Made by a program: the position numbers and the translations under genes. From Maricaulis parjimensis (GTDB taxonomy: Bacteria; Pseudomonadota; Alphaproteobacteria; Caulobacterales; Maricaulaceae): DNA of 64,000 nt. The stretch spans positions 1 to 64,000 of the forward strand of contig NZ_JADOTT010000009.1 of assembly GCF_016817355.1 (NCBI RefSeq). Direction: 5' to 3'. Below are positions 11,601 through 38,748 of the stretch, piece after piece (positions within the stretch are counted from its first letter, which is position 1; every line of letters begins with the position of its first letter). The notes under the pieces are model-generated. The model searched no databases, was not told the DNA's origin, and was given only the letters and a program-made list of their open reading frames with translations.

Positions 11601-11629
11601 TTGACCCCTCACAGGAACACATATAGAAC
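11601..11629 (+). promoter_or_regulatory. lexA promoter with embedded LexA (SOS) box
   Basis: A -35 TTGACC (11601-11606), a 17-base spacer and a -10 TAGAAC (11624-11629) are present. A perfect GAAC-N7-GAAC box at 11615-11629 covers the spacer and the -10, so LexA binding would block polymerase. This is the alphaproteobacterial LexA motif. A weaker GTTC-N7-GTTG lies at 11683-11697, just before the start codon. Confidence 0.85.
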
Positions 11630-11699: not shown

Positions 11700-12395
11700 G
11701 TGCTGACACGCAAACAGAACGAACTTCTGCTCTTCATCCATAAACGGATCAAGGAAACCGGCGTTTCGCCCTCCTTTGACGAGATGAAGGAGGCGCTGCA
11801 ACTCGCTTCCAAATCCGGCGTGCACCGCCTGATCACGGCGCTGGAGGAGCGCGGCTTCATCCGTCGCCTCGCCCACCGGGCCCGCGCACTGGAAGTGCTG
11901 AAACTGCCGGAATCGGCAGCGAGTGGTGATCTCAATGCCGCCCGCGGGGATCTGGGTCCCAATGTCGTGCGCGGCAATTTTGCCAAGCCGGAGGCCGATG
12001 ACACCCCTGGATCCATCGAAATTCCGGTTCTGGGCCGCATCGCGGCCGGTGTGCCGATCTCTGCGATCCAGCACGAGACGGAACGCCTGCCCATTCCGGC
12101 GGACATGATCGGACAGGGCGAGCACTTCGCGCTGGAGGTCAAGGGCGATTCCATGATCGAGGCGGGCATTCTGGACGGCGACACCGTGCTGATCCGGCGC
12201 TGCGAGTCCGCCAATTCCGGCGATATCGTCGTGGCTCTGGTCGATGACGAGGAAGCCACGCTGAAACGCCTGCGCAAGAAAGGTGGCTCCATCGCTCTGG
12301 AAGCCGCCAATCCGGAGTATGAGACCCGCATTTTCGGTCCCGACCGCGTGAAAGTGCAAGGCTGCCTGGTGGGCCTGCTGCGACGCTATCACTGA
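11700..12395 (+). CDS. lexA: SOS repressor LexA
   Basis: Represses DNA-damage genes and self-cleaves when RecA filaments form. The 231 residues from a GTG start are [16 protein letters not shown]... with a winged-helix DNA-binding domain (1-70). A linker then leads to the S24 protease domain with the scissile Ala116-Gly117 in LGRIAAGVP, Ser151 in KGDSM and Lys189 in EATLKRL. The frame is open 40 codons further upstream, but those codons run through the promoter and have no family match, so I take GTG 11700. It is autoregulated through the box at 11615-11629. A second SOS-controlled gene is at 36296-36391. Confidence 0.96.
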
Positions 12396-32711: not shown

Positions 32712-35700
32712 TCAGACAGTCTCGACGGACGCGACGCCATCCACGCCTTTCAGGGCGGCCTGCAGGGCTGTGTCGGCACTGTGGCGGCCTGGCAGGCGCA
32801 ACTCGACCTCTCCGCCATCGGAGAGCGGAAGTAGAAGATCGACAATCGCATTGAGTGTGGCATCGGCGCGCTTGTTGGCGCGTTCCATGCGCAGATGGAC
32901 GCGTTCCAGGGCGGCGGCATCATCCAGACGAACCCGCAGGCGATCGGCGGATATCTTCATGTCGAGCGGCTCCAGCCGGTCGGCGAAGAAGGAGATTTGC
33001 TCGTCGCGCTCATCGACGCGGCAATTGACCAGGACAGCCTGCCCGCTTTCCAGCAAATCGCGTGATGTACGAAGGAGTTCGGAGGCCACGAAGACCTCGA
33101 ACTCGCCGGTGGGATCGGACAGGGTGACCCAGGCAAAGCGCTCGCCATTCTTGTTGGAGACCCGTTCCTGACGGCGCCGGACCATGCCGGACAAGCGCAG
33201 GGCCGTGGCACCATCGGCGACACGGGCGGGGGCTTCGGCGTGGAAGACGACGCCGCGGCCGGCGAGGTGTTCGGTCATGTCGTCGAGCGGGTGACCGGAG
33301 AGATAAAAGCCGATGGCGGACAATTCATTGTCCAGCCTTTCCGTGGCCGTCCAGGGATCCGGCTCCGGCAGGCGCGGCCGTTCCAGGGCGATCTCTTCGC
33401 CCCCGCCGCCGAACAGGCTGGCCTGGGCACTATCCCGCTGCTGGGCGGCGTGCTGGGCCATGGATATCAGGGTTTCCGCCGAGGCCAGGACACGGGCGCG
33501 GTCGGGATCGAGCGTGTCGAAGGCGCCGGCGCGGGCCAGGTTTTCAAACGTGCGCTTGTTGATATGACGCGGGTCCACGCGTTCGGCGAAATCATACAAG
33601 TCCTTGTAGGGACCATTGGATTCGCGTTCAGCGACGATGTGTTCCATGGCGGAGAAGCCGACATTGCGGATCGCGCCCAGGGCGAAGCGGACCGTCCCCT
33701 CCTCCACCGAGAAATCGGCCTGGGAAGCGTTGACATCCGGCGGACGCACCTCAATGCCCATGCGCCGGATTTCCTGATGAAAGGCCGCCAGCTTATCCGT
33801 GTTCGCCGCGTCCAGTGACATCAGCGCGGCCATCAGCTCAACCGGATAGTTCGCTTTCAGATAGGCGGTGCGATAGGCGATCGCGGCATAGGCGGCGGCG
33901 TGGGACTTGTTGAAGCCATAACCGGCGAACTCGGCGACGAGTTCGAAGATGTAGGAAGCCTTCTCGCGGCTGACATCCTTCTTCTCGGCGCCTTCCAGGA
34001 AACGGACTTTCTGCTTGTCCATCTCCTCTTTCTTCTTCTTGCCCATGGCGCGGCGCAGAAGGTCGGCTTCCCCGAGGGAGTAGCCGGACAGGATCTGGGC
34101 GATCTGCATCACCTGTTCCTGGTAGATGATGACGCCATAGGTTTCCGACAGCACGCCCTCAAGATCGGGGTGGAGGCAATCCACCTCGGCGCGACCGAAT
34201 TTCCGGTCGACATAGACGTCGATATTCTTCATCGGGCCCGGGCGATAAAGGGAGATTAGGGCGATCAAATCCTCGATCGCATCGGGCTTCATCTTCTTGA
34301 GCGTGTCGCGCATGCCCGAGCTTTCCAACTGGAACACGCCGATGGCATGGCCCGATTGGAGCAGTTCGAAAGTCGCCTTGTCGTCGAAATCAATCCCTTC
34401 AATATCAGGGACTTCCTTGCCAGCAGAGGCGATATAGCCGAGGGCGCGGGCGATCACGGTGAGGGTTTTGAGGCCCAGGAAGTCGAATTTTACCAGGCCG
34501 GCGGGCTCCACCCATTTCATGTTGAACTGGGTGGCGGGAATATCGGAACGCGGATCGCGATAGAGCGGCACCAATTCGGAGAGCTTGCGGTCCCCGATCA
34601 CGACACCGGCGGCGTGTGTGGAGGCGTTGCGGAAGAAGCCTTCCAGCTTGAGCGCGATGGTCAGAAGGCTGTCGACGGCTTCATCCTCGGCCCGCATTTC
34701 CTTGAGCCGCGGTTCCAGGTCGAGCGCCTGGGCCAGGGTGACCGGATTGGCGGGATTGGACGGAACCAGCTTGGCCAGCTTGTCCACCAGGCCGAAGGGC
34801 AATTGCAGGACGCGGCCGGTATCGCGCACCACGGCGCGCGCCTGCAGCGTACCGAAGGTGATGATCTGCGCCACCCGGTCATGCCCGTAGCGCTCCTGCA
34901 CATAGCGGATCACCTCGCCGCGCCGCTCCTGGCAGAAGTCGACGTCGAAGTCCGGCATGGACACACGTTCCGGGTTCAAGAAGCGTTCGAACAGAAGACC
35001 GAAGCGCAGCGGATCCAGATCCGTGATGGTCAGCGAGTAAGCCACCAGCGAGCCGGCACCGGAACCCCGGCCCGGTCCGACCGGAATGTCATGGTTCTTC
35101 GCCCATTGGATAAAGTCCGACACGATCAGGAAGTAACCGGGAAAGCCCATCTCTTTGATGATGCCGAGCTCGAAATCGAGGCGTTCGCGATATTCCGCCT
35201 CGGGCGCGGCATTGGCCCCGGAGGCCAGACGCTCGGTCAGACCCTCATGGGCCCGGGCGATCAATTCCTCGGCCTCGTCGCGTCCGTCCTTGGTGGGGAA
35301 GCTGGGCAGGATGGGTTTGTGGGTGCGCACGCGATAGGCACAGCGCCGGGCAATCTCGAGCGTGTTCTCCAGCGCCTCGGGCAGGTCGGCGAAGCGTTCG
35401 CTCATCTCCTGCGGCGTGGTGAGATAATGATCCGCCGTCACCTTGCGCCGGTCCGACACGGAAACGAAGGAGGATTGGGATATGCAGAGGAGTGCGTCAT
35501 GCGCCTTGTGCATGGACGGGTCCGGGAAATAGGCCTCATTCGTGGCCACGAGCGGCAGGTCCCGGGCATAGGCCTGATCGACCAGCCAGTTCTCCGCCAT
35601 CAGCTCATTGTCCAGGCCGTGACGCTGAAGCTCGACATAGAGCCGGTCCCCGAAGCGCTCCTGCAGACGCGAGAGGAGTTTGTCGGCCTCGGGCAGGCGC

Positions 35701-36155
35701 CCGGTCTCGATCATCCGGTTGAGCACACCATCGGGACCGCCGGTGAGACAGATCAGACCCTCGGCATGGCCCAGCACGCTGGACAGCGGGATGTGCGCCT
35801 CTTCAGAGCCGTCCACCTCCAGAAAGGCCTCACTGGTGAGCGCCATGAGGTTTTCATAGCCGGTGCGGTCCTGCACCAGGAGGACGATCGTGCCCTCCGG
35901 CTCGGCGCGTTCGCCGGGATGCGGATCAACGGTCCGGACCGAAAGCGTGCAGCCGACAATCGGCTGGATCCCGGCCCCGGCCATGACCTCGGAGAATTCG
36001 AGGGCGCCGAAGAGATTATTGGTGTCCGTGAGGGCAATGGCCGGCATGCCATGGGTCTGGCAGGCCGAGACCATTTGGGGCATGCGGATCGCGCCTTCCA
36101 GGAGCGAATAGGGCGAGCGGACACGAAGATGTACAAAAGGATGTGTCTGCGCCAT
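32712..36155 (-). CDS. dnaE: DNA polymerase III alpha subunit
   Basis: Catalytic subunit of the replicative polymerase. The 1147 residues match the DnaE1 family. There is an N-terminal PHP domain (about 5-270, opening [20 protein letters not shown], core [11 protein letters not shown]), then the C-family polymerase core. It has [14 protein letters not shown] near 355 and the metal-binding Asp pair in MPDFDVDF near 400, with [13 protein letters not shown] in the fingers. A helix-hairpin-helix region and an OB-fold near 985-1070 ([20 protein letters not shown], core [15 protein letters not shown]) follow. AGGAG precedes the ATG. The SOS-controlled small gene lies 140 bases upstream on the same strand, so some read-through into dnaE is possible. 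Confidence 0.97.
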
Positions 36156-36295
36156 GCCCGGCTCCTGCCCGCTTATCCCTTCCCCTGAGCCGGCCGGAAA
36201 CGGGGATAACTCCCTGCCCGGCCGAGCTGGTGTCGCGACCCGGCCCTGTCCGGACGCTGCCGGAACGTGAGTCGCGAATGGTCAGAGTAACCGGA

Positions 36296-36391
36296 TCAGG
36301 CGGCGCCGAGAACCGATCCCCACAGAGTGATCATCCAGGCAAAACCGAGAATGGCGGTGGCGGCTGAGACATCTTGCAAAACACGACGCAT
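36296..36391 (-). CDS. SOS-controlled one-helix membrane peptide, SidA-like (31 aa)
   Basis: A 31-codon frame from ATG 36391 to TGA 36296 begins MRRVLQDVSAATAIL and continues GFAWMITLWGSVLGAA. It has a short basic N-terminus followed by one membrane helix (about residues 9-30). GGAGG sits 5 bases before the ATG, one of the best ribosome sites in the window. The promoter at 36445-36473 has its -10 inside a perfect LexA box, and a second perfect box lies further upstream. Caulobacter SidA, a 29-residue SOS-induced inner-membrane inhibitor of FtsW/FtsN-dependent division, has the same size, topology and control. Orthology is my inference, because I compare features and not an alignment. It is too short for standard gene callers. 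Confidence 0.8.
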   Translation of the reverse strand: MRRVLQDVSAATAILGFAWMITLWGSVLGAA

Positions 36392-36433
36392 AACTTCCTC
36401 CCCGAAGCGCGAAAATCCGTCGGACACATGTCC

Positions 36434-36448
36434 GTTCTGTTTTTGTTC
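36434..36448. promoter_or_regulatory. LexA (SOS) box 1
   Basis: A perfect GTTC-TGTTTTT-GTTC, the alphaproteobacterial LexA motif. Its upstream-side half-site is part of the -10 element of the small-peptide promoter, so bound LexA should block initiation. Confidence 0.85.
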
Positions 36449-36473
36449 TATGCGCCGAAGAATCACCCGTCAA
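36445..36473 (-). promoter_or_regulatory. Promoter of the SOS small-peptide gene
   Basis: On the minus strand -35 TTGACG (36468-36473), a 17-base spacer and -10 TAGAAC (36445-36450). The -10 is identical to that of lexA, and the spacer is the same length. The predicted start near 36438 gives a leader of about 47 bases. Confidence 0.8.
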
Positions 36474-36480
36474 GCAGAAA

Positions 36481-36495
36481 GTTCCATATTTGTTC
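36481..36495. promoter_or_regulatory. LexA (SOS) box 2
   Basis: A second perfect GTTC-CATATTT-GTTC, 47 bases from box 1 and just upstream of the -35. Two boxes on roughly the same face of the helix could allow cooperative repression. Confidence 0.8.
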
Positions 36496-36693
36496 CGCCC
36501 GCAAACACCGCTTAATTCAATGAAACAGGGATCAGGACGGGGTCGCAGGGAGATTGCGCGGAGATCGAAGCCGCATCAGGTTGGGATCAAGATGGGTCCC
36601 GGATCTGCGCCCGGCTCAAGGCCGGGCTTTCGTCCGGGATGACAAGGGAAGAACAAAGACCGTCAAAGATGGCGCCCTTTGCGCGAAGGGCCG
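36496..36693. other. Intergenic region with REP-like element
   Basis: About 200 bases lie between the SOS boxes and the end of the small membrane protein gene. Apart from the palindromic element at 36594-36643 I see no gene or signal. With the SOS promoter, the stretch without an ORF from 36392 is just over 300 bases. Confidence 0.6.
36594..36643. repeat. REP-like palindromic element
   Basis: The core hairpin GCCCGGC-TCAAG-GCCGGGC (36609-36627) is flanked by imperfect arms GGTCCCGGAT and GTCCGGGATGAC. It is the common alphaproteobacterial intergenic palindrome, placed downstream of the minus-strand gene that ends at 36694. Confidence 0.75.
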
Positions 36694-37101
36694 CTATTCG
36701 GCTGCTGCGGAATGTTCCCGGATCATGAGGTAGAGCGTGGCGCCGGATAAAACGAGGTAGAGATAGTTGAAGTCCCACTCGGTGAAGGAGAGGTTTCCGG
36801 TGAACTCGATCCACAGGATCAGGCGCAGGACCTCACTGAGGGAGAAAATGATGATCGCCGTCATCACACGCCGGGTCAGGAAGACCAGACAAGCCGCGGA
36901 ATAGACGGCGAGTTCTCGAACCGGTTCCACCAGTTTCACATAAGCCGGTTCGCTGTGCAGGGCCTCGGCTGTCGGGATGCCGAAAAACTCGCGCGTCGGA
37001 TCGATCAGGTCGAGGACGAAATTATAGCTGAGCAACAGCGTGAACATCACCTGGATGCCCAAGAGCACGCGCAGTAGCAGACCCTGCGAGACAATCGTCA
37101 A
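36694..37101 (-). CDS. Small polytopic membrane protein of unknown function
   Basis: About 135 residues with four probable membrane helices (roughly 8-30, 60-75, 80-98 and 108-125) and no charged active-site motif. I do not recognise a family. The start is TTG at 37101, because GGGGAGG sits 5 bases upstream. The GTG at 37107 would overlap that ribosome site. It stands alone between the SOS small-peptide gene and the divergent serine hydrolase. The four-helix pattern would suit an integral accessory protein, but the sequence gives no function. Confidence 0.6.
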   Translation of the reverse strand: MTIVSQGLLLRVLLGIQVMFTLLLSYNFVLDLIDPTREFFGIPTAEALHSEPAYVKLVEPVRELAVYSAACLVFLTRRVMTAIIIFSLSEVLRLILWIEFTGNLSFTEWDFNYLYLVLSGATLYLMIREHSAAAE

Positions 37102-37353
37102 CGGCACCTCCCCAGATCCCGATAAACTACCCTCACAGCATTTTACGAAGCACTGCCTGCGTCAATGTAGAGCTCGAAGCCGGCAATCCGGGCGATCGGG
37201 ACCGGCTGCAGAAGGTCCGCATCCTGTCATGCCACTGGCGCAAGACTGGCGGGGTGATGGCGTGGCCGGGAGCGCGGCTGATCGGCTATGGACCGTGCCA
37301 AGGATGAACGCCCTATACTCATCCCCTGATGATTCACGGCAGAGGCTGGATGC

Positions 37354-38748
37354 ATGCGCTGGATATGGATGACGCTTTGTCTGGCGATGGCCGGCCCTGC
37401 TTTCGCCGATGAAAGCGAGCGTGCGCTGGACGCGATCGCCCGGTCGGAATGGGAGATCTCCGGCGTGCCCGGTCTGGCCTATGCAGTTTTTGAGGACGGT
37501 CGCATCCAGTCCGGGGCACAGGGCGTCGTGCGGGCGGGGCAGGATACCGGGGTAACGGCGGACACACCCTTTGCTCTGGGTTCGATCAGCAAGAGTTTCA
37601 CCGCACTGGCGATCCTGCAACTCGAGGAGGCCGGACAGGTTGAGCTGGATGGCGCGGTCAGCGCCTATCTGCCCGCCTTCGAGGCCGCACCGGGCCGCTC
37701 GATCACACTGCGCCAGCTGCTCAGTCATACCAGCGGCTATTCCACATCTCAGGGCAATGTGAACCCGGACGGGGCTGCAATACTGCAGGACCGGGTGGCG
37801 CAGATCGCGACCTGGCAAACGAGCCATGCGCCCGGCGAGCATTGGGAATACTCCAACGCGAACTATGTCGTTCTGGGCGCGGTCATCGAGACGGTCAGCG
37901 GGCGCGATTATGCTGATTATATCGAGGCGGAGATCCTGACCCCGCTCGGCATGCAGCACAGCCGCGTGGCGGACGGCAGGGCAGACCCGGCCATGGCCAC
38001 GCCGCATGTGCCCTGGTTCGGGTCGCGCCGCGCCCTGCCCGGCCAGCTTCCGGACCCGGCCAGCGCTCCGGCCGGCGGCGTGATCGCCAGTGCACAGGAT
38101 GTCGCGCTCTATCTCGGCATGATGATGAACGGGCAGGATGATCTGATCACTGCCGAGCACAAGGCGCTGATGATGCGCCCGGCCAGCGATGCCGCCCCCT
38201 TCTACGGGCTGGGCTGGTATGTCGACACGCGCAATGGCTCGGTCTCGCACACGGGGACCACGCCCGGCGGGGAAACCTTGGCCCTGATGCGCCCGGATGA
38301 AGGCCGGGCCGTGGTGGTGCTGGTCAATGCCAGTTCCGGTCTCGGCTTTGGGGAGACCGGACGATTGAGATATGCCGTCGCGCTGGCCGCCTTCGGCGAG
38401 ACGCTCGCGCCGGATGGGGGCGTCTGGGGCCGCAAACTCCTCACCCTGATGTTCTGGATCCTGCCGCCGCTCTTCCTGGCGGGCATCGCCATTGCCTGGC
38501 TGAAACGGGCGGGCTTGCGGGCCAAAACCGGCGTTTCGGGCATGTTCAGCCTTTGGTTCCCGCTGCCGGTGAGCCTGGCTCTGGCCTGGGTGAGCCTCTT
38601 CCTCATCCCGGCCCTGTTCGGGATTTCCCTGTCGACCCTGGCGCTCTACCAGCCGGACTGGGTGATCGCCCTGTGGGCGACGGCGGTGACGGGCCTTGCC
38701 TGGGCGCTGTTCCGGCTGGGGGTTTATTTTGCGCCGGGGCGTCACTGA
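37354..38748 (+). CDS. Serine hydrolase of the class C beta-lactamase family with C-terminal membrane tail
   Basis: The 464 residues have a signal peptide (cleavage near AFAD, residue 18), then a penicillin-binding-protein/class C beta-lactamase fold. The nucleophile motif is Ser77-x-x-Lys80 (GSISKSF), the second motif Tyr166-Ser-Asn168 and the third His299-Thr-Gly301. The His in the third motif is typical of esterase- and D-aminopeptidase-like members rather than the KTG of true beta-lactamases. About 110 residues at the end form three membrane helices, so the catalytic domain is held at the membrane. Substrate is unknown; a peptidase or esterase role is as likely as anything else. It is not in an operon. 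Confidence 0.85.
   Translation: MRWIWMTLCLAMAGPAFADESERALDAIARSEWEISGVPGLAYAVFEDGRIQSGAQGVVRAGQDTGVTADTPFALGSISKSFTALAILQLEEAGQVELDGAVSAYLPAFEAAPGRSITLRQLLSHTSGYSTSQGNVNPDGAAILQDRVAQIATWQTSHAPGEHWEYSNANYVVLGAVIETVSGRDYADYIEAEILTPLGMQHSRVADGRADPAMATPHVPWFGSRRALPGQLPDPASAPAGGVIASAQDVALYLGMMMNGQDDLITAEHKALMMRPASDAAPFYGLGWYVDTRNGSVSHTGTTPGGETLALMRPDEGRAVVVLVNASSGLGFGETGRLRYAVALAAFGETLAPDGGVWGRKLLTLMFWILPPLFLAGIAIAWLKRAGLRAKTGVSGMFSLWFPLPVSLALAWVSLFLIPALFGISLSTLALYQPDWVIALWATAVTGLAWALFRLGVYFAPGRH

Follow-up and report, generated by a model that had tools for sequence, protein, structure and literature searches.

The window, by which is meant the whole 64,000-nucleotide stretch of Maricaulis parjimensis DNA analysed here (contig NZ_JADOTT010000009.1, positions 1 to 64,000), carries upstream of dnaE a 31-codon gene whose product is most probably the SidA orthologue of its lineage, i.e. 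a LexA-repressed inner-membrane peptide that would block FtsW/FtsI/FtsN during DNA damage, this estimate applying to the division-inhibitor role as a whole. The features concerned are as follows.

36296..36391, minus strand: sidA-like gene, 31 codons plus TGA, product MRRVLQDVSAATAILGFAWMITLWGSVLGAA
36397..36401, minus strand: Shine-Dalgarno sequence GGAGG, 5 bases 5' of the ATG, read from the sequence
36434..36448, minus strand: LexA box 2, GAACAAAAACAGAAC, perfect GTTC-N7-GTTC, overlapping the proposed -10
36445..36473, minus strand: proposed promoter, TTGACG (36468-36473), 17-nt spacer, TAGAAC (36445-36450)
36481..36495, minus strand: LexA box 1, GAACAAATATGGAAC, perfect GTTC-N7-GTTC, upstream of the proposed -35
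32712..36155, minus strand: dnaE, DNA polymerase III alpha subunit with the expected Pfam domains, starting 140 nt downstream of the peptide stop
11615..11629, plus strand: LexA box before lexA, GAACACATATAGAAC, a positive control inside the window
11703..12389, plus strand: lexA, coordinates of the TIGR00498 match

Peptide gene, LexA boxes and proposed promoter

The initial annotation had described a 31-codon ORF with GGAGG 5 bases before its ATG, and this was confirmed at 36296-36391 on the minus strand, as were the basic N-terminus and single hydrophobic helix attributed to the product and the two perfect GTTC-N7-GTTC boxes placed before the ORF (36434-36448 and 36481-36495). The product also has an acidic residue at position 7; the AlphaFold model of the 31-residue peptide is a single helix encompassing residues 2-30 (mean pLDDT 91.1, pTM 0.43), and the highest 17-residue hydropathy is 1.67. 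Longer in-frame readings from GTG codons farther upstream are present in the window (56 residues), whereas alignable sequence in relatives begins at the ATG of the 31-codon ORF, and a Shine-Dalgarno-like tetramer lies within 16 nt of the ATG at all 18 genus loci.

A conserved ORF at the dnaE-upstream place in relatives, on which the initial annotation had staked its reading, was found by tblastn in 17 of 18 same-genus relatives, the sole miss being a genome that is 65% complete and also gave no dnaE match (G012). In the 18 genus sequences (153 pairs), differences at codon positions 1, 2 and 3 numbered 866, 188 and 1910, respectively, and pN/pS was 0.219 in the frame of the ORF, against values of 1.18 and 3.85 for the two remaining forward frames and 0.88, 0.36 and 4.95 for the antisense frames, the value of 0.36 belonging to the frame with aligned wobble positions. 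This is a coding pattern, as had been anticipated, and judged by it the ORF is a real gene under purifying selection at the amino-acid level. A mobile origin was considered and rejected, tblastn with the window peptide yielding nothing in phages and only matches at E 7 in six Ligilactobacillus plasmids.

The LexA operator consensus GTTC-N7-GTTC was taken from Table 1 of PMC9578287. The window contains four perfect boxes against 1.51 expected, and four or more were reached in 6 of 100 shuffles, so that box counts alone are little proof; likewise, most box matches across the window genome are chance occurrences, given 64 perfect boxes against 45 matches of the reversed control pattern. It is conservation across the genus that raises the boxes and the ORF above chance: at least one perfect box lies within 150 nt of the ATG at all 18 genus loci, window included, and at least two at 14 of them. 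TTGAC is found within 130 nt upstream of the ATG at 17 of the 18. The promoter at 36445..36473 is given as a proposed one since a strict sigma-70 scan found no promoter at the locus.

Both box sequences recur in the same genome. The 15 bases of box 2 precede an ImuA-like gene (NF033429 at E 1e-9 and 38.5 bits, the cut-off being 150; no Pfam match), while those of box 1 precede an MmcB-like gene (PF06319, E 1e-53) and occur at a third place (L342), where no known gene was recognised. No further hydrophobic small ORF led by a Shine-Dalgarno sequence was found behind any of the boxes checked, sidA boxes left out, in either the window genome (30 of 64) or C. vibrioides (30 of 97).

Position upstream of dnaE and relationship to SidA

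dnaE was found in 97 of the 101 genomes of the order, including the window genome, and the regions upstream of it were taken for 80 of the 96 others. A SidA-type peptide lies before dnaE in 74 of these 80 relatives; 73 of the peptides were identified by an ATG start, a length of 24-34 residues and a hydropathy filter, and one (L088) by a later profile search. Six loci gave no peptide before dnaE (L046, L061, L075, L076, L089 and L090). The peptide is about 1.3 kb from the dnaE match at L012 and within about 300 nt at the other loci examined. For all 74 peptides a box lies in the 150 nt preceding the start codon; it is perfect in 62 cases and only of the variant form GAAC-N7-GAA[TA] in 12 (L028, L030 to L038, L070 and L088), which weigh less since this pattern is looser. 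At L028 and L030-L038, which belong to genera of the window's own family, the boxes are half-degenerate (GAAC-N7-GAAT or GAAA), often with two about 25 nt apart, and the lexA loci examined in this block retain a perfect box.

Family f2 seems to have no sidA-like gene. Both f2 loci taken gave no peptide, and in 10 f2 genomes searched with a profile there were nine matches, spread over five genomes, all at E 0.09 or worse and eight of them inside frames of more than 230 residues. Relocated copies were sought with query A3 in 17 genomes, 15 of which either gave no peptide at dnaE or had not had the dnaE region taken; only one match was convincing, and it lies at dnaE (G039).

Caulobacter provided the anchor. 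The initial annotation had tentatively placed sidA near dnaE in this genus, and this was borne out in C. vibrioides DSM 9893 (L117). There the dnaE-upstream peptide has 29 residues and a stop about 35 nt from the dnaE start, and the NCBIfam equivalog model for the cell division inhibitor SidA, NF033228, gives it 72.4 bits against a cut-off of 35. C. crescentus sidA is CCNA_02004 (PMC11034885) and Caulobacter dnaE is CC1926 (PMC1839093), the latter in a separate numbering scheme; the label CCNA_02003 for dnaE was not found in the open literature searched. A scan with the Caulobacteraceae DnaE N-terminus gave a named Caulobacteraceae set, the best 80 of 266 relatives, comprising Caulobacter, Phenylobacterium, Brevundimonas and unclassified relatives (L168 and L171 being one assembly). 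At 79 of these best 80 loci dnaE is preceded by a peptide that, taken from the longest start, has 29 to 34 residues, the exception, L114, starting at a contig edge; thus the comparison of position relative to dnaE called for by the initial annotation found a same-strand upstream peptide both here and in the 74 relatives of the order. Many of the best 80 named loci have a variant box and not all a perfect one, and L136, L167 and L180 have neither in the stretch examined.

Given ten peptides, NF033228 scored 65.6 bits for L073 and 41.2 for L165, fell below its cut-off of 35 for L167 (Brevundimonas sp. UBA7635, 26.5) and L081 (24.6), and gave no match for the window peptide and four others. At the genome level it exceeded the cut-off in 5 of 101 genomes, all of family f3, and its above-cut-off matches in G094, G078 and G074 are, by their coordinates, the dnaE-upstream peptides of L086, L073 and L082. 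The window peptide matched no family, NF033228 included, at E 10, and NF033228 matched nothing in the window genome at E 10, a limit to be read with the HMMER filters in mind, which drop most matches above about 0.1. NF033228 would therefore not name the window peptide in an annotation. A second SidA-like match in G074, a genome of the Caulobacter family (C3:315102-315185), at 28.5 bits and hence below the cut-off, lies away from dnaE in an open frame of 132 residues and is a possible paralogue.

The window peptide shares with C. crescentus SidA the place before dnaE, the LexA boxes, a basic start, an acidic position 7, one helix and a GF-x-WM core. It differs in having 31 residues instead of 29, in its invisibility to NF033228, in two full boxes 47 nt apart and in a helix end of the form W-[GS]-x-[VI]-L-G, which is also seen in some other genera of its family and in some peptides outside the order. 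When 61 chosen peptides were aligned jointly, a single gap, in L066, interrupted the core; position 7 was D or E in 58 of them, and G16 occurred in 42, F17 in 42, W19 in 30 and a Trp at position 24 in 46; Caulobacter SidA has no Trp at the last of these. Another alignment, of 20 peptides, places a two-residue gap in the Caulobacteraceae rows. A helical periodicity of conservation was not significant, 464 of 5000 shuffles being as strong.

Profiles were split by family with the peptides of the window's family kept out, and were cut from one joint alignment, so that their column registers are not independent. The window peptide was detected at E 3.9e-10 by a profile of 13 peptides from outside the order (equalled by none of 3000 full and none of 3000 class-preserving shuffles), at E 9.1e-5 by a profile of 14 peptides from other families of the order (1 and 0 of 3000) and at E 0.014 by a profile of 10 Caulobacteraceae peptides (3 and 50 of 3000). 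In the reverse direction, the profile of the window's family (34 peptides) detected C. vibrioides SidA at E 0.0023 and at E 0.0012; scores as good came from 2 and 0 of 3000 full shuffles and from 7 and 8 of 3000 class-preserving ones. By these scores the window peptide resembles Caulobacteraceae SidA weakly when the two are compared directly, and the chain through intermediates is good. As NF033228 gives no match, orthology rests on synteny, LexA boxes, size, helix and alignment; position, control and the profile chain taken together make it very likely that the window peptide is orthologous to SidA.

Occurrence outside the order

A DnaE profile run over 240 genomes of the class found dnaE in at least 226, and 79 loci outside the order were taken, some as short pieces (299 bases at L220); as these were drawn mostly from the better-scoring matches, DnaEs similar to the query are over-represented. 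A perfect box lies within 650 nt of the end of the upstream piece at 13 of the 79 loci. A hydrophobic ORF of 31-47 residues preceded by a Shine-Dalgarno sequence was found between box and dnaE at all 13, starting 28 to 59 nt after the box start, but at only 4 of the 66 loci without a box. The association gives a Fisher p of 9e-12, a value that is too small because the 13 loci, in nine families with four counted twice, are not independent, and the opposite-strand control gave 3 of 79. The families are f8, f9, f14, f46, f62, f120, f125, f127 and f130, the last of which also has a member with neither box nor peptide (L237). Of the four box-less peptides, the one at L209 looks genuine, with an imperfect box.

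Several peptides outside the order have, like the window peptide, an end of the form W-x4-W-[GSA]. For L218, L221, L260 and L263 a profile of all Caulobacterales peptides scored near noise (E 2.9 or worse), so that their kinship is argued from place and control only. Most of the 79 loci are without the box-peptide-dnaE arrangement, and its distribution may reflect either an old origin with frequent loss or relocation, or transfer. We give roughly even chances to the view that the SidA checkpoint is an old class-wide module that joins a LexA box and dnaE to a single-helix peptide some 29-47 residues long and is present in at least nine of the families sampled outside the order. On this view, one damage-controlled promoter would ancestrally have both braked septation and fed dnaE, and fast divergence of the peptides would leave the standard model seeing only Caulobacteraceae.

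In the open literature searched, most subscription papers lying beyond its scope, no paper was found on sidA outside Caulobacteraceae or on a wider link with dnaE. An old checkpoint peptide in physical linkage with the replicative polymerase gene may be common to many alphaproteobacteria. The position rule of LexA box, tiny hydrophobic ORF and dnaE would find SOS division inhibitors missed by the standard sequence model, and dozens of diverged natural variants could reveal the FtsW-contacting residues of a helix 30 residues long.

Proposed function, alternatives and the link to dnaE

Damage induction, membrane insertion, target and read-through are inferred here, function being carried over from Caulobacter by orthology. 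LexA bound to the two boxes around the promoter would keep the peptide gene off; upon DNA damage, active RecA would lead to LexA cleavage and the 31-residue peptide would be made, enter the inner membrane as a single helix with its basic end inside and hold the FtsW/FtsI/FtsN subcomplex inactive, so that septation would wait for repair. ftsW is present in the window genome. For Caulobacter SidA, the model preferred in PMC4211646 has FtsW/FtsI/FtsN kept in an inactive state, and Caulobacter without lexA is reported to filament through constitutive sidA (PMC12700426). DidA of C. crescentus is likewise a small inhibitor of division with a single membrane pass, produced upon DNA damage; it differs in having 71 residues, in being SOS-independent and driven by DriD, and in binding FtsN (PMC4211646). 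YneA of Bacillus, reported to interact with FtsW (PMC13396833), and SosA of Staphylococcus are SOS-induced division inhibitors like the SidA type, to which they are taken as convergent.

The alternative given most weight, and still an improbable one, overlaps with the preferred explanation: a division inhibitor of the SidA family whose direct partner is a divisome protein other than FtsW. The divergence of the helix from Caulobacter SidA and the existence in Caulobacter of a second inhibitor that binds FtsN speak for it, and nothing specific speaks against it, except that FtsW is the default given orthology with SidA. Less probable is an SOS-induced membrane-depolarising peptide that would slow growth through membrane leak instead of divisome binding. 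TisB of E. coli is a LexA-controlled hydrophobic peptide that acts on the membrane and is accompanied by an antisense RNA; DinQ of E. coli, also LexA-controlled and hydrophobic like the window peptide, is described as differing from it in the same two respects. Both are of the same size class and topology as the window peptide and share its LexA control; however, the window peptide occupies the place of Caulobacter SidA, whose target is known (PMC4211646), and no Rfam match, such as a known antisense regulator, was found at E 1 in 35600-37200, a search that would miss an undescribed RNA.

A translated leader ORF regulating dnaE, with the LexA boxes there on behalf of dnaE, was judged very unlikely. 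The long-standing linkage of peptide and dnaE would suit such an arrangement, as would four loci at which a box precedes dnaE and no peptide was found (perfect at L046 and L075, variant at L061 and reversed at L089), but it accords poorly with amino-acid-level selection across the ORF, with the conserved helix and acidic position 7 and with the known protein function of the Caulobacter member. Chance occurrence of an ORF in intergenic DNA would be easier to credit for only 31 codons, and hydrophobic small ORFs led by a Shine-Dalgarno sequence do arise by chance, as in the opposite-strand controls; its probability is nevertheless negligible, the low pN/pS and the third-position excess across 18 genomes having ruled it out.

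Under the SidA reading the same promoter may have a second role. Since a box is kept without a peptide at L046, L061, L075 and L089, it is suggested that dnaE, too, is driven from the LexA promoter, at least at these loci, and may itself be LexA-controlled there; the word dnaE is, however, absent from the main text of a 2025 paper on the Caulobacter SOS response (PMC12700426), which counts against such a role. By estimate, the peptide stop and the start of dnaE are 7-30 nt apart in several lineages; two C. vibrioides strains gave distances of 35 and 25 nt. In the window the terminator scan found none on the minus strand between peptide gene and dnaE, its only terminator-like site being on the plus strand at 36421-36434 (0.7 expected), and transcription may therefore continue from the peptide gene into dnaE.

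A CTA[AGC]NCT element was found within 60 nt after the peptide stop at 16 of the 51 loci tried from among the 75 peptide-bearing ones (mononucleotide shuffles predict 1.1); it could be a separate dnaE promoter and is noted as a lead, its strict form being absent from the window locus. Upstream of the peptide gene, a hydrophobic ORF of 137 residues (36694-37107, minus strand) matched neither Pfam nor NCBIfam, and a protein of 464 residues with a beta-lactamase family domain (37354-38748, plus strand; PF00144, E 4.7e-70) is encoded between the peptide gene and a lolD-like gene.
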